A stretch of 64,000 nucleotides of DNA, from assembly GCA_020629635.1 (NCBI GenBank), contig JAHDCX010000013.1, positions 1 to 64,000 on the forward strand, read 5' to 3'. The stretch's first letter is position 1. Each line of letters opens with the position of its first letter. The notes under the pieces were generated by a model, which was not told where the DNA came from, searched no databases, and was given only the letters and a program-made list of their open reading frames with translations. The DNA comes from Acidimicrobiales bacterium (GTDB lineage Bacteria > Actinomycetota > Acidimicrobiia > Acidimicrobiales > SHLQ01). Below are positions 44,331 through 51,523 of this stretch, piece by piece. Position numbers and translations under genes: made by a program.

Positions 44331-44525
44331 ATGAGCGAGGAACGCCGCAACGAACTCGCCGACCGACTCGACGGAATCGCGGAGGCCATCGCCGAACTCG
44401 GCATGGAGAACATGCGCTCCCGAATCGACGCCGGCGAAACCGACCGATGGGCCGCCGATGAAGAAAAGCGGCTGGCAAGAGCGAGACGAGCCGTCATCAA
44501 GGCGTCGCTGGAGTTGCGTCGTTGA
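44331..44525 (+). CDS. Short helical hypothetical protein
   Basis: 64 residues from ATG 44331: MSEERRNELADRLDGIAEAI then a basic C-terminal helix (RLARARRAVIKASLELRR). It looks like two helices, one acidic and one basic. TAGCAT at 44318-44323 ends seven bases before the ATG, a leaderless layout. Its 3' end overlaps the end of the convergent LOG gene by 29 bases. No family recognised. Confidence 0.55.
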   Translation: MSEERRNELADRLDGIAEAIAELGMENMRSRIDAGETDRWAADEEKRLARARRAVIKASLELRR

Positions 44526-45546
44526 GCGCGTCGATGAGCTGACGAAGCCGGGCGTAGCCGTGCCGATTGAACCGAAAGGCGATTCGGTCGAGATCCAGGT
44601 TGTCACGATCTCGGACTTCTGACTCCGTGGGCTCGATTCGTTCGATCGCTCCATCTTCGATGATGTCCCCAAACTCGGTCGTGAGCGTCCGAAGCTCGTC
44701 GTCGTCTGGTGACCGTCGAAGACGGAGAACGAGACGCTGGCCGACGGCGCGAGCGGAGTGATACGTGCGGTAGAACCGGACCATCTCATCGGCGGCCTCC
44801 TCGACCGAGTTGGTGAGCAGAAACAGCGACATGTCCGCCGGCGAGATGAGTCCGTCGGCGAGTAGCTCCTTGCTCACGAAGTCCTGCCAACGCTCCCAAT
44901 AGGTCGAGCCCTCTGGATCGAGGAGCACGACGGGTGCAAGGATCGACTTGCCGGTTTGCATCAGCGTCAAGAGCTCGAAGGCTTCGTCCATCGTCCCGAA
45001 GCCGCCCGGCAGAATTGCATAGCCGTGACTTTCCTTCATGAACGTCACCTTGCGAGTGAAGAAGTACCGGAAGTTGATGAGCTTGGGGTCGTCAGCGATG
45101 AACTCGTTCGCCGATGCCTCGAACGGCAGGACGATGTTGATGCCGAACGAATTCTCTGCCCCGGCTCCTTCGAGTCCGGCCGCCATGATCCCGGGGCCTG
45201 CTCCGGTCATGACCATCCAGTCGCGGGCCGCCATGGACGCGCCCAAGTGCTTCGCGCTCTCATACGCGGGATCGCCCGACGTGATTCGGGCCGAGCCGAA
45301 GATCGTGCACTTCTTGATGTCGCGATACGGCGCGAAGACGTGGAACGCGTATCGCAGCTCCTTGAGCGCCGCGTTCACGAGTTTGAGATCGGCCCGGCCG
45401 ACGTCTTCTCGCCCCATGCGGAGCGCAGAGACGACCATCTCGAAGATCAGATCCTGGTCGTCTCGGATTCCGGCATCATCGATGACCGAGGCGATCCGTT
45501 GATCGACCTCTCCGTGACCGGTTCGGTAGCGGGGCAGCTGTTCCAT
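44497..45546 (-). CDS. LOG family protein
   Basis: 349 residues. The Rossmann core has the LOG signature PGGFGTMDEAFELLT and TGAGPGIMAAGLEGA, with IFGSARITSGDP before it. Classic LOG enzymes release adenine-type cytokinin bases from ribotides; bacterial long forms act as nucleotide phosphoribohydrolases. N- and C-terminal extensions of about 80 and 90 residues make it longer than the minimal family. TACGAT on the minus strand (45553-45558) ends six bases before the ATG. Confidence 0.85.
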   Translation of the reverse strand: MEQLPRYRTGHGEVDQRIASVIDDAGIRDDQDLIFEMVVSALRMGREDVGRADLKLVNAALKELRYAFHVFAPYRDIKKCTIFGSARITSGDPAYESAKHLGASMAARDWMVMTGAGPGIMAAGLEGAGAENSFGINIVLPFEASANEFIADDPKLINFRYFFTRKVTFMKESHGYAILPGGFGTMDEAFELLTLMQTGKSILAPVVLLDPEGSTYWERWQDFVSKELLADGLISPADMSLFLLTNSVEEAADEMVRFYRTYHSARAVGQRLVLRLRRSPDDDELRTLTTEFGDIIEDGAIERIEPTESEVRDRDNLDLDRIAFRFNRHGYARLRQLIDALNDATPATP

Positions 45547-45582: not shown

Positions 45583-47934
45583 TCAGTCGATGAGGTCGTA
45601 GACGGTGTTTCTTTGCCGCAACGTCCGGCCGAGTGGGGCGACCAGGTCCGCGAAGTCGTCCCTCGTAGCGGCGGTCCCATGGCTTGCTCCGGCGGCCCGG
45701 CTGATGTTCTCGTCGATGAGCGTGCCCCCAAGGTCGTTCACGCCTGCGTGGAGGAGCTGTCCGACGCCGTTCATGCCGATCTTGGGCCACGATGCCTGGA
45801 TGTTGTCAATCGCACCGTGATAGACGATTCGGGCCACTGCGTGCATGAGCAAAGTCTCGCGGAAGGTCGGCCCGCGTCGTGCCCGTCGCCGGAGGTAGAT
45901 CGGCGAGGCCATGTGCACGAATGGCAGTGTGACGAACTCGGTGAACCCGCCTGTTTCGAGCTGAAGTTCGCGGGTCCGAAGCAGGTGACGCGCCCAGTGT
46001 CGTGGTGTCTCGACCGCCCCGAACATGATGGTCACGTTGGAGGTCAGCCCGACTCGGTGCGCCAGGCGATGTGCTTCGAGCCATTCTTCGGTGTTGACCT
46101 TGTCGGGGCAAAGGATCGCCCGCACTTCATCATCGAGAATCTCGGCCGCGGTCCCCGGCAACGATCGCAGGCCGGCGTCTCGGAGGCGTGCGAGGTACTT
46201 CTCGAGCGGTTCGCCGAGACGGCGAGCGCCCTCCGTCACCTCGAGCGCAGTGAAGCCATGGATGTGGATGTCGGGCACTGCTTGGTGGACGGCGTCGATC
46301 ACATCGACGTAGTACTCGCCATCGAAATCGGGGTGAATACCACCTTGCAGGCAGACCTCGGTGGCTCCGAGCTCGGCAGCCTCGGCGACTCGTTCGGCGA
46401 TGTCGTCCAACGTGAGGAGGTACGGGGCGCCGCGGAGATTGAGCGAAAGCGGCCCCTTGCTGAATCCGCAGAACTGGCACTTGAACGTGCAGACGTTGGT
46501 GTAGTTGATGTTCCGATTGGCGACGAAGGTGACCACATCGCCGTTGACGAGCTGACGGAGGCGATCGGCATGCTCGCTCACGGCAGTGACTTCGGCACCG
46601 CGAGCGGAGAACAACGTGACGATCTGGTCTTCGTCGAGGGAGCCGCCTGCGGCCGCGTGATCGAGGACCTCAGCGACGGCGCCGCCGATGCTGGCGAGAG
46701 CAGCGGGGAGCAGTCTCGGGGGAGTGGCATCTGCGCCCGAATACCACGCCGTGGACCGATCGCCGACCAAAACCACCTCGGCCCCATCGCCGACTGCACC
46801 GACTTCCATGGTGCGCTCGGGAAACACGGCACCGGGATCGTCGCGACCGAGACCCTCGGCGTCGGCCCGGTCGCCGACGGCAAAGTGCAACGCAGGATCG
46901 ATCCAGATGTCACGCTCGGCAACGAAGCGAGGATGGACGGTGAGTCGCGGCGCGAGCACATGACCGTCGGGCAACGCCGCGTCGATCGCGTCGACTTGCG
47001 GCCAGGGCTTCTCGGGGTTGACGTGATCGATCGTGACGGGCGAGATGCCACCGAGGTCGTCGATGCCCGCATCGACGAGCGATGCGACGTTCGAGACGAG
47101 GTTCGGGGGTGCCTGTACCGACACTTCCGCGGGAAGGATTTCACGGGCCAGCGCAATCGCTTCGAGATGCTCGGCCTCCGGACAGGGCGGGTGACGATGC
47201 ATCCGGGTGTCACTTTTCGGCAGGAAGTTCTGCACGATCACTTCTTGCACATGTCCATGACGATCATGCGATTCGGCGATCGCTTCGAGGGCTTGGATTC
47301 GATCTGCGCGACTCTCGCCGATCCCGACGAGGATCCCGGTCGTGAAGGGTATGCGCAGCTCTCCCGCGGCCTCCAACGTCGCGAGCCGTCGTTCGGGCGT
47401 CTTGTCCGGCGATCCCTTGTGGCATTCGAGGTCCGCGTTGAGCGACTCGAGCATCATGCCCTGCGAGGGTGACACCGGACGGAGTGATGCGAGCTCGTCG
47501 CGATCGAGCGCACCCGCGTTTGCGTGGGGGAGCAGCCCGGTTTCGGACAGAACCAACGCGGCCGCAGCCCGGAGATAGTCGATGGTGGTCTGGTAGCCGT
47601 TCTCGTCGAGCCATTCTTGCGCGGCGGGGTAGCGGAGCTCTGGGCGTTCGCCCAGTGTGAAGAGTGCCTCATGACAACCCGCCCGGGCCCCGGCTCGGGC
47701 GATCTTGAGTACCTCGGGAAGCGAGAGATACGGCGCCTCCACCCGCGCCGGCGGCTCGGCGAACGTGCAATAGCCGCATCGGTCCTGACAGAGCTTCGTC
47801 AACGGGATGAAGACTTTGGGCGACCAGGTCAGACGTGTTCCGAACTGTTCGTCGCGTCGACGAGCGCTGCGGCGCATCTGATCGGCGATGGGTCCCGGCA
47901 GCTCGAGCTCGGCCTGGACGGGGAGCAGGGTCAC
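45583..47934 (-). CDS. fbiC: F420 precursor synthase, CofG-CofH fusion
   Basis: 783 residues with two radical-SAM domains. The CofG half has CQDRCGYC (C49, C53, C56); the CofH half has CTFKCQFC (C482, C486, C489). Together they make 7,8-didemethyl-8-hydroxy-5-deazariboflavin (FO), the chromophore of F420, from tyrosine and a flavin precursor. The length fits actinobacterial FbiC. The start overlaps the HxlR regulator stop by ATGA, so the two are coupled. FbiA/B are not in the window. Confidence 0.95.
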   Translation of the reverse strand: MTLLPVQAELELPGPIADQMRRSARRRDEQFGTRLTWSPKVFIPLTKLCQDRCGYCTFAEPPARVEAPYLSLPEVLKIARAGARAGCHEALFTLGERPELRYPAAQEWLDENGYQTTIDYLRAAAALVLSETGLLPHANAGALDRDELASLRPVSPSQGMMLESLNADLECHKGSPDKTPERRLATLEAAGELRIPFTTGILVGIGESRADRIQALEAIAESHDRHGHVQEVIVQNFLPKSDTRMHRHPPCPEAEHLEAIALAREILPAEVSVQAPPNLVSNVASLVDAGIDDLGGISPVTIDHVNPEKPWPQVDAIDAALPDGHVLAPRLTVHPRFVAERDIWIDPALHFAVGDRADAEGLGRDDPGAVFPERTMEVGAVGDGAEVVLVGDRSTAWYSGADATPPRLLPAALASIGGAVAEVLDHAAAGGSLDEDQIVTLFSARGAEVTAVSEHADRLRQLVNGDVVTFVANRNINYTNVCTFKCQFCGFSKGPLSLNLRGAPYLLTLDDIAERVAEAAELGATEVCLQGGIHPDFDGEYYVDVIDAVHQAVPDIHIHGFTALEVTEGARRLGEPLEKYLARLRDAGLRSLPGTAAEILDDEVRAILCPDKVNTEEWLEAHRLAHRVGLTSNVTIMFGAVETPRHWARHLLRTRELQLETGGFTEFVTLPFVHMASPIYLRRRARRGPTFRETLLMHAVARIVYHGAIDNIQASWPKIGMNGVGQLLHAGVNDLGGTLIDENISRAAGASHGTAATRDDFADLVAPLGRTLRQRNTVYDLID

Positions 47935-48389
47935 TGGATTGCCTCCGACGTGTGCGTGCGGCGCCGGATCGCCTGAGCCGAGACAACGTCACCGCACGAC
48001 GTGCACACGGTTCGATTCTCAATCGGGCCGCCGCATTCGGCGTGAACGAGCGTGGGGCCCGTCGTCTCGACGCCCCATCGCTCGCCCCACTGCAGGAGCG
48101 ATATCAGGACCGGGGACAACTCGAGGCCCGCCGTCGTCAGGCGGTAGTCGTGACGGACGGGTCGGTCCTGGTACGGCACGCGCTGGACGACACCGTTGTC
48201 GACCAGACGGCCGAGCCGGTTGGTCAACAAGTTGGTCGAGATACCTGTCGCCTCGACGATTTCGGCGAACCGATGGTTGCCGGCGAAGATCGATCGAAGG
48301 ACGAGCAGCGACCAGCGATCACCAATCGCATCGAGCGCGGCGGTGATCGAATCGGTCGATTCGGGGCGGGGGAGCGTAGCGCTGGTCAC
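47931..48389 (-). CDS. HxlR family transcriptional regulator
   Basis: 152 residues from GTG 48389. The winged helix is seen in DRWSLLVLRSIFAGNHRFAEI, GISTNLLTNRLGRLVDNGV and the wing DRPVRHDYRLT. A C-terminal Cys set (AECGG, CTSCGD) may bind a metal or sense thiols. I prefer GTG 48389 to the upstream TTG 48416 because a clear promoter and operator lie just before it. It is coupled to fbiC, so it probably controls FO synthesis; the signal is unknown. Confidence 0.86.
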   Translation of the reverse strand: MTSATLPRPESTDSITAALDAIGDRWSLLVLRSIFAGNHRFAEIVEATGISTNLLTNRLGRLVDNGVVQRVPYQDRPVRHDYRLTTAGLELSPVLISLLQWGERWGVETTGPTLVHAECGGPIENRTVCTSCGDVVSAQAIRRRTHTSEAIQ

Positions 48390-48395
48390 GCACGC

Positions 48396-48429
48396 ACTGT
48401 ACTGGGTTACTTGCAATATGCAAGTAACC
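48396..48429 (-). promoter_or_regulatory. Promoter and palindromic operator of the HxlR-fbiC operon
   Basis: Minus-strand TTGCAT (48418-48423) and TACAGT (48396-48401) are 16 bp apart. The -10 ends six bases before GTG 48389, so the mRNA is probably leaderless. A perfect palindrome with 11-bp arms (48405-48415 and 48419-48429) and a 3-bp centre fills the space between the boxes and covers the -35. It should bind the dimeric regulator and repress. Confidence 0.75.
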
Positions 48430-49527
48430 TCAGGAGAGGCCCTCCGCCTTGGCGGTCAGCGAGGCGAGCAGCGAGTCGAAGCTCTTCTCGAACGCCGCCA
48501 CCCCTTCATCTTCGAGCTGCACCGCGACGACATCGAGATCGACGCCCAGGGCGGCGATGTCGGCCAGCACGGACTGCGCCTCGGCGAGATCTGCGTCGAT
48601 GGTCCGCGCAACCGTTCCGTGGTCGAGGAAGTGGCCGAGCGTCGAATCCGGGATGGTGTTGACCGAGTTCGGGCCGATCAACGAGTCGACGTAGAGCGTG
48701 TCGGGGTAGTCCGGGTTCTTCGTACTCGTCGATGCCCACAGAGGACGTTGAACCTGTGCTCCACGGGCTTCGAGAGCTTCCCAACGCGGGCCACTGAACG
48801 TCTCGAGGAAAGCGGCATAGGCCAACTTCCCGTTGGCGACCGCGGCTTTGCCCCGAAGCGCGAGTGCGGCATCCGTGCCGATCTCGGTGAGTCGAGCATC
48901 GACCTCGACATCCACGCGGCTGATGAAGAACGATGCGACGCTCGAGATCGAGGACAGATCCCCCTCCGCGCGCTCCAAACCGCTGATGTAGGCCTCCATC
49001 ACCTCTCGATACCGATCGACCGAGAACAGCAGGGTCACGTTGATGCTGCGTTTCTCTGAGATCATCTGGCCGATTGCGGGTACCCCTTCCGCCGTCGCCG
49101 GGATCTTCACGTACAGGTTGGGTTCGTCGATCTGGTCCCACAGTGTTCGGGCAGCCGCCTCGGTGCCCGCTTGATCGCGTGCAAGGCCGGGGTCGACTTC
49201 AACCGACACGAAACCATCGAGTCCGTCCGAGGCGTCATAGAGCGGGCGGCACAGGGCGAGCGCGTCCTCGATGTCGGTGGTCACGAGCCCCCAGTAGGCC
49301 TCCTCGACCGACGCACCCGACCGAAGGAGTTCTGCGAACTGCTCGGTGTACTCGTCGGATCCTTCGATCGCCTTCTGGAAGATGCTCGGGTTCGAGGTGA
49401 TGCCCCGGACGCCGCGATCGAGCCAGCGCTGCAGCTCGCCATCGTGAAGCCAGCCGCGGCGAAGGTTGTCCAGCCACGGGCTCTGTTGATGGTCGTTGAA
49501 GAGTTGGTGGAGGGTCGTCTCATCCAT
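48430..49527 (-). CDS. tal: Transaldolase
   Basis: 365 residues. The Schiff-base lysine is Lys141 in NLYVKIPAT; other landmarks are GVRGITSNPSIF and SKRSINVTLLFS-like EKRSINVTLLFS. It moves a three-carbon unit between sugar phosphates in the pentose phosphate pathway. It lies 49 bp downstream of tkt and its stop touches the HxlR operator. Confidence 0.94.
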   Translation of the reverse strand: MDETTLHQLFNDHQQSPWLDNLRRGWLHDGELQRWLDRGVRGITSNPSIFQKAIEGSDEYTEQFAELLRSGASVEEAYWGLVTTDIEDALALCRPLYDASDGLDGFVSVEVDPGLARDQAGTEAAARTLWDQIDEPNLYVKIPATAEGVPAIGQMISEKRSINVTLLFSVDRYREVMEAYISGLERAEGDLSSISSVASFFISRVDVEVDARLTEIGTDAALALRGKAAVANGKLAYAAFLETFSGPRWEALEARGAQVQRPLWASTSTKNPDYPDTLYVDSLIGPNSVNTIPDSTLGHFLDHGTVARTIDADLAEAQSVLADIAALGVDLDVVAVQLEDEGVAAFEKSFDSLLASLTAKAEGLS

Positions 49528-49576
49528 GCGCCGACCCTACCGCCCGACGACTCGACGAACGGGCGCTTTCGGTCGA

Positions 49577-51523
49577 TCAGTCGATCGCTGCTCGTATGGC
49601 ATCGACGACTGCGGTCGAGGTCATGCCCAGATGTTCCATGATCTCGCCGCCCGGGGCCGAGGCTCCGAAACGGTCGATTCCGAGGCACGTATCCGCCCAT
49701 CGGTGCCATCCGTGGGTCGACCCGGCCTCGATCGAAACGGTCGGATGCGTCCGGGGGAGCACTGCGGCGCGGTAGTCGAGGTCCTGCTCGACGAAGACTT
49801 CCCAACAGGGCAACGAGACCACACGGACGAGCACGCCCTGTTCGGCCAACAGGTCGGCGGCCTCGACGGCATGTTGCAACTCCGACCCCGTTGCGACCAC
49901 AGTCGCCACGGCATCGGTGGACTCTCGCAGCACGTACCCGCCCCGGGCGACTCCGGCTGGCGACGTGCCCGAAAGGACAGGAAGGTTCTGGCGCGAGCAG
50001 ATCATGGCCGTCGGATGCGGGCGCTCGAGCGCGGCCGCCCACGCTGCTGCCGTCTCGTTGGCGTCACCGGGACGCCACACGTCAAGCCCTGGCATCGCAC
50101 GAAGCGAGGCGACGTGTTCGACCGGCTGGTGGGTCGGACCGTCCTCGCCGACGCCGATCGAATCGTGGGTCCACGAGAAAATCATCTTGTGATGACCCAG
50201 GGCCGCGAGGCGGACGGCGCCACGCATGTAGTCACTGAACACGAGAAAGGTTCCGCCGACCGGCAGGAGGTGGCCGTGGGCGGCCATCCCAACCATCGCC
50301 GAACCCATGCCGTGCTCCCGTATGCCGAAGTAGATCTGACGACCGCTGCGGTCATCCCCGAAGACGCCATGGCCGGAGATCACGGTCCCGGTGTTGCCTG
50401 TCAGATCAGCACCGCCGCCGACGATTCCTGGATGCACGTCGACGAGGGCTTGCAGGACCGCTCCGGACGCTTTCCGGGTCGCGACGGACTCACCCCTTTC
50501 CCACGTCGGGATGGCGTCCTTGTACCCGTCGGGAAGGACGCCATGAACGAGTGCGTCGAGCGCCGTTCGATCTCCGGAGAACGACTCGACCCGGTCCGAC
50601 CATGCAGACGCCGCATCCGAACCCCGTGCTCCGAGGTCGCGGCAGTATGCGAACACATCGTCGGGCACGTGGAACGTCTCGTCGGCGGGGAGGCCCATCG
50701 CGGTCTTCGTCGCCGCGATCTCGTCGTCCTTGATTGCGTACCCGTGCGCGTGGTGCGTGCCGGCGTGCTCGGTGGCCGGAACTCCGATCGTCGTGTTGAG
50801 GACGATGAGTGAGGGACGCTCGGTCTCAGCCATGCCTTCGCGGATGGCGGCTTCGAGCGCATCGAGGTCTTCGCCGACGTCGCCGGCTTCGACGACGTGC
50901 CAGCCATAGCTCCTGAAGCGCGCGGCCGAGTCGTCACTGAACGACAGATCGGTCGAGCCGTCGATCGAGATCTTGTTGTCGTCGTAGACGAACACGATCT
51001 TGCCCAGCCGGAGGTGGCCGGCAAGCGACGCCGCCTCGTGGCTCACGCCCTCTTGGAGATCGCCGTCGGAGCACAAGCCGAAGATGTAGTGGTCGCAGAT
51101 CTCCGAACCGAGCCGCGCCCGGATGTGCGCCTCTGCGATGGCCATGCCGGTCGCATTGGCGAACCCTTGTCCAAGCGGCCCCGTCGTGACCTCGACACCT
51201 GCCGTGTGCCCCACTTCGGGGTGACCCGGTGTTGCCGAGCCCCACTGGCGAAAGTCACGAAGATCGTCGAGCGTCAGCCCAAAGCCGTACAGGTGAAGCA
51301 GCGAGTACTGAAGGATCGATGCGTGGCCCGGCGAAAGGATGAATCGATCCCGGTCGAACCACTGCGGATTGGCCGCGTCGAAGTTCATGATTCGGCCAAA
51401 CAGCACATGGGCCACGGGCGCAAGCGACATGGCGGTTCCCTGGTGTCCCGACCGGGCGGCGTGTGGCGCATCCATCGACAACCCGCGGATGGTCGAAATG
51501 GTGAGTCGATCGAGTTCGTCCAC
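49577..51523 (-). CDS. tkt: Transketolase
   Basis: 648 residues. Thiamine-diphosphate motif GLCSDGDLQEGVSHEAASLAG with DDNKISID, and the pyrimidine half FGIREHGMGSAMVGMA plus FSWTHDSIGVGEDGPTHQPVEH. It transfers two-carbon units in the pentose phosphate pathway. tkt-tal order is common in Actinomycetota. GTG start with AGGAGC upstream. Confidence 0.95.
   Translation of the reverse strand: MDELDRLTISTIRGLSMDAPHAARSGHQGTAMSLAPVAHVLFGRIMNFDAANPQWFDRDRFILSPGHASILQYSLLHLYGFGLTLDDLRDFRQWGSATPGHPEVGHTAGVEVTTGPLGQGFANATGMAIAEAHIRARLGSEICDHYIFGLCSDGDLQEGVSHEAASLAGHLRLGKIVFVYDDNKISIDGSTDLSFSDDSAARFRSYGWHVVEAGDVGEDLDALEAAIREGMAETERPSLIVLNTTIGVPATEHAGTHHAHGYAIKDDEIAATKTAMGLPADETFHVPDDVFAYCRDLGARGSDAASAWSDRVESFSGDRTALDALVHGVLPDGYKDAIPTWERGESVATRKASGAVLQALVDVHPGIVGGGADLTGNTGTVISGHGVFGDDRSGRQIYFGIREHGMGSAMVGMAAHGHLLPVGGTFLVFSDYMRGAVRLAALGHHKMIFSWTHDSIGVGEDGPTHQPVEHVASLRAMPGLDVWRPGDANETAAAWAAALERPHPTAMICSRQNLPVLSGTSPAGVARGGYVLRESTDAVATVVATGSELQHAVEAADLLAEQGVLVRVVSLPCWEVFVEQDLDYRAAVLPRTHPTVSIEAGSTHGWHRWADTCLGIDRFGASAPGGEIMEHLGMTSTAVVDAIRAAID

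Follow-up and report, generated by a model that had tools for sequence, protein, structure and literature searches.

What controls the synthesis of coenzyme F420 in bacteria? The product of fbiC carries out the first dedicated step of the pathway, and F420 itself is important to redox chemistry, to the biosynthesis of antibiotics and to the activation of prodrugs. How bacteria set their F420 level is nonetheless essentially undescribed in the open-access literature searched here. A locus from the Acidimicrobiales, an order of mostly uncultured actinobacteria, raises the question directly. On the minus strand of the 64,000-nucleotide stretch of DNA analysed (the window), a regulator gene, hxlR, lies immediately before fbiC, and a perfect palindrome lies over their presumed promoter. 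The anatomy, conservation, uniqueness and linkage of these elements were read from sequence, and binding, repression, the transcription start and the signal are inferred. Taken together, they make it probable that HxlR is an autogenous repressor dedicated to FO synthase, with the palindrome as its operator controlling hxlR-fbiC.

The regulator gene (48389-47931, minus strand) encodes a winged-helix protein of 152 amino acids belonging to the HxlR/DUF24 family, as an earlier sequence-only reading of the locus had proposed. Residues 22-106 match PF01638 (4e-24; 84.6 bits against a cut-off of 20.8), and the predicted fold matches the structures of HypR, YodB, QsrR and HxlR. Scores against the more specific models for RrpB (NF047364, 52.4 bits, cut-off 175) and RrpA (NF047367, 26.5 bits, cut-off 185) fall below their cut-offs. 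The coupling of hxlR to fbiC that had been described is visible as a 4-bp GTGA stop/start overlap (47931-47934, minus strand), and the same -4 overlap is possible in most relatives. The second gene, fbiC (47934-45583, minus strand), encodes a bifunctional FO synthase of 783 amino acids in which CofG and CofH are fused (TIGR03550, 464.6 bits, cut-off 213; TIGR03551, 495.9 bits, cut-off 374); the full-length model PRK09234 scores 993.5, just below its cut-off of 1018. Transketolase (tkt) and transaldolase (tal) genes, co-directional with hxlR, lie just 5' of the palindrome (window positions 48430-51523), and tal itself (49527-48430, minus strand) ends directly before it. Downstream of fbiC, the same strand carries a gene (44497-45546) for a LOG-like Rossmann-fold protein (Lysine_decarbox), whose TIGR00730 score is slightly below the cut-off.

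The palindrome between tal and hxlR is a predicted HxlR-type operator, GGTTACTTGCA-n3-TGCAAGTAACC, at 48405-48429 with no strand assigned. Its two 11-bp arms (48405-48415 and 48419-48429) are 100% complementary around a central ATA, and its overlap with a TTGCAT/TACAGT promoter of 16-bp spacer was borne out as first described. Dinucleotide shuffling of the window gives an expectation of 0 matches. A scan of the genome for the palindrome, suggested earlier as a way to define a regulon, returned this single site in 4.45 Mb at up to 3 mismatches. With a looser pattern, the hxlR promoter site was by far the best in its own genome and just two other places matched with 3 mismatches, the same number as for a control pattern; these regulon searches are pattern-based, and weaker sites could escape them. 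A palindromic motif model built on 57 distinct upstream regions of relatives converged on AGTnAGTTGCAAnTTGCAACTnACT with 25.3 bits, compared with 6.1 (maximum 6.7) for shuffled upstream regions. Of 147 genomes, 20 contain the exact consensus, and comparison of coordinates places it each time at the promoter of this hxlR. At one mirrored pair, the dyad in the window has C/G in its arms where the consensus has G/C, and it is still perfect. Mirror positions 3, 4 and 5 are complementary more often than under permutation (p = 0.013, 0.035 and 0.020, uncorrected for relatedness or number of tests).

A perfect inverted repeat could also act in RNA or terminate tal instead of binding a protein, and the minus-strand RNA does fold into a strong 11-bp hairpin (z -4.5). 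This explanation is very improbable, as there is no T-run after the stem, and at many orthologous sites the half-sites GT..GTT and AAC..AC are kept although pairing in the centre is imperfect, as would be the case for DNA recognition. The dyad should also lie outside the main transcript, because the 5' end predicted from the -10 element falls downstream of it. The hairpin and terminator reading was rejected.

The promoter itself reads, on the minus strand, TTGCAT (-35 element, 48423-48418, within the operator), a 16-bp spacer, TACAGT (-10 element, 48401-48396, 3 nt past the operator), GCGTGC, and then the GTG start codon at 48389. A scan with the E. coli sigma-70 consensus did not call this promoter, and TTGCAT agrees with TTGACA at 3 of 6 positions; the call is based instead on the TAnnnT and the spacing that are conserved across species. 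Of 56 orthologous sites, 50 have a TAnnnT 0-5 nt past the dyad, and 48 of these also place the TTGCA-type hexamer of the dyad at a distance of 15-18 nt upstream of the -10 element. The distance of six bases between the -10 element and GTG 48389, noted in the sequence-only reading, is correct and within the range of about 6-9 nt expected of a leaderless start. The first in-frame start codon is found 5-10 nt past the -10 element in 42 of the 50 sites (median 7), and this rises to 46 of 50 if, at sites whose first candidate abuts the -10 element, the next one is taken instead. The leaderless layout is therefore conserved, and transcripts appear, from this spacing, to begin at the start codon. An alternative TTG start at 48416, giving an open reading frame of 161 amino acids, was discarded; it falls within the operator, upstream of the point at which similarity to relatives sets in.

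Members of the HxlR/MarR-DUF24 family bind dyads, and the 25-bp dyad would serve as operator for the HxlR whose gene follows it directly. By occupying this site, a dimer would cover both the -35 element and the spacer in the one promoter recognisable for hxlR-fbiC and would block RNA polymerase, so that hxlR would repress itself; cotranscription and the 4-bp translational coupling would extend the repression to FO synthase. Upon release of HxlR, transcription would start at GTG 48389, give or take one or two bases, and yield a leaderless mRNA. Repression is the most likely sign of regulation because the dyad covers the -35 element and the spacer, and autoregulation follows from this. Activator sites usually lie upstream of -35. 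The same protein could instead act from the same operator as an activator, bound at or near -35 and recruiting polymerase on a signal, comparable to the action of B. subtilis HxlR on hxlAB. The family does include activators (PMC7835342), and a weak match to the E. coli -35 consensus, as seen here, can be a sign of an activated promoter. An activator is nevertheless unlikely here, as in dozens of species the dyad overlaps both the -35 element and the spacer and leaves only 0-5 nt to the -10 element, a position from which a bound protein should occlude polymerase.

The association of hxlR with fbiC was examined by searching for HxlR relatives in 147 genomes of the same order and comparing their positions with fbiC of the same genomes. 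hxlR adjoins fbiC in 42 of the 78 genomes tabulated, upstream and co-directional in 39 and divergent in 3; two genomes (G123 and G110) are tabulated as having none only since a single listed fbiC segment was used per genome. All of the 29 best-scoring relatives (about 47-61% identity) adjoin fbiC except one (L010), where the contig ends first. Those relatives that do not adjoin fbiC are mostly more distant HxlRs, and fbiC stands without an adjoining hxlR in some genomes of the order. In a tree of 117 HxlRs, built with a quick method and having moderate support, fbiC-adjacent and non-adjacent proteins separate with 2 label changes, compared with about 39 in shuffles, and seven divergent HxlRs cluster together. 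A scan of named-species genomes added further adjacent cases, nearly all labelled Acidimicrobiales, Acidimicrobiia or Actinomycetota; the few under other labels are metagenome-assembled genomes that group with the Acidimicrobiales-type cases. In the same scan, the HxlRs of Proteobacteria, Actinomadura, Streptomyces and Micromonospora do not adjoin fbiC, and among the 30 best loci of a phylum-wide sample fbiC was found beside HxlR in the same order only. Where the two genes are divergent (L159-L161, L047, L054 and L062), a dyad of GTTC...GAAC type mostly lies between them. In three genomes of one family (G057, G103 and G136; loci L142, L158 and L174), fbiC has no hxlR neighbour, yet its -10 element and start codon are themselves overlapped by an HxlR-type dyad, with AGTCCGTTTCATGACAGGACTTACT / GGTCCGTTCTGTGACAGAACTGACT as the dyads.

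These arrangements bear on whether fbiC is a target of HxlR or a passenger. HxlR might control only itself, with fbiC levels set by constitutive readthrough from tal. No terminator was found on searching the gap between tal, which ends at 48430, and the operator directly after it, and because tal ends at the operator with no intervening terminator, readthrough into hxlR-fbiC is possible. It is rather improbable, however, that fbiC is a mere passenger: hxlR-fbiC and the operator persist across species even though what lies upstream of them differs, the divergent arrangement still keeps fbiC beside a dyad, and in the three genomes with no adjoining hxlR a similar dyad lies directly on the start of fbiC. 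The remainder of the pathway also informs the scope of the proposed repressor circuit. Genes fbiA (C31:58515-59432) and fbiB (C31:57760-58443) are present in the genome, and the F420 pathway is therefore present; they lie on a different contig from hxlR-fbiC. Pattern searches of the genome found no dyad at fbiA or fbiB, and their separate location and lack of the dyad point to a circuit dedicated to FO synthesis. The dedicated link to FO synthesis that had been suggested from this locus thus holds in two respects, with an adjacency that is conserved and an operator that occurs at this locus only.

The dyad motif itself is not exclusive to the control of FbiC. Paralogous HxlRs that have no link to fbiC, across the order and the phylum, carry the same AGTnnGTT-n9-AACnnACT upstream, sometimes twice, and exclusivity was rejected because the paralogues share this architecture phylum-wide. 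Tandem dyads of the same architecture are frequent upstream of such unlinked paralogues (L165, L166, L169, L171 and L173). Since paralogues share the dyad layout, the operator type is a property of this HxlR subfamily, and for the same reason another HxlR might bind the dyad. The new element, judged from these comparisons, is the lineage-wide attachment of an HxlR subfamily operator to FO synthase.

The cysteines of the protein bear on the signal to which it may respond. Its C-terminal tail carries a zinc-ribbon-like H116-x2-C119-x9-C129-x2-C132 motif (47994-48044, minus strand), whose four residues are invariant in 30 fbiC-linked orthologues. The C-terminal cysteines had been read as pointing to redox or metal sensing, and this proposal did not survive comparison: an HxxC-CxxC-type tail is equally found in 52 of 56 relatives with no fbiC link, and the tail was rejected as specific evidence for redox or zinc sensing because these relatives share it. 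The simplest and more likely reading of HxxC-x9-CxxC is a structural zinc site, although the structure model (core pLDDT 90-96) does not allow such a site to be judged because its tail reaches only 63-84. At the position of the classic N-terminal sensor cysteine of DUF24 proteins (aligned position 13), this protein and sampled genus mates have aspartate. A cysteine at the strict position is found in 33 of 53 co-directional relatives and in 0 of 7 divergent ones. As it is missing here, in genus mates and in divergent members, a thiol switch is not general to the circuit. Tentatively, the signal may relate to demand for FO or F420 rather than to thiol oxidation, with feedback by FO or F420 as the preferred guess. 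A more specific version, which should be regarded as speculative, is that HxlR directly senses FO, reduced F420 or a pathway precursor and that hxlR-fbiC forms an order-wide feedback loop on F420 supply; HxlR would then be a deazaflavin-responsive transcription factor. A regulator locked to FO synthase throughout an order, with a single operator in the genome, offers a small and directly testable circuit, and the ligand of HxlR would reveal what F420 synthesis responds to.

The expectation that control of FO synthesis by an HxlR protein is undescribed agrees with the open-access literature, in which no such case was found. Searches for HxlR with fbiC and for HxlR operators returned nothing relevant there, subscription journals being outside the coverage. 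HxlR and F420 are mentioned together only in two papers, which by title and abstract deal with a haloarchaeal genome and a methanogen isolation. In a large 2021 F420 review, none of the few passages that use "regulat", "repressor" or "operon" treats transcriptional control of F420 synthesis, and a term search of a 2026 review likewise found no such passage.

Mycobacterial and streptomycete fbiC encode the same bifunctional FO synthase as the gene studied here, and what sets the present locus apart is the linkage to HxlR, which, among the 30 best phylum-wide matches, appeared in this order alone. The closest solved structures by both sequence and fold are PA1607 (2f2e) and PA1374 (4gcv) of Pseudomonas aeruginosa, which are likewise long HxlR proteins with a C-terminal extension, but their aligned tails are devoid of the four zinc-type residues. 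B. subtilis HxlR, a formaldehyde sensor (PDB 7bzg), is an activator that responds via Cys11-Lys13 crosslinking (PMC7835342); it shares its fold with the present protein, and both are regulators with a neighbouring metabolic target, whereas the equivalent of Cys11 is missing here. The HxlR/MarR-DUF24 redox regulators YodB, CatR and HypR of B. subtilis and QsrR of S. aureus belong to the same winged-helix family as the present protein. In YodB, HypR and HxlR the N-terminal cysteine serves electrophile or aldehyde sensing, and the sensor cysteine conserved in YodB, CatR, HypR and QsrR is replaced by aspartate in the present protein, which carries in addition the C-terminal HxxC-CxxC extension that these four lack. 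These redox regulators act on detoxification, whereas the target of this HxlR would be an enzyme of cofactor biosynthesis.
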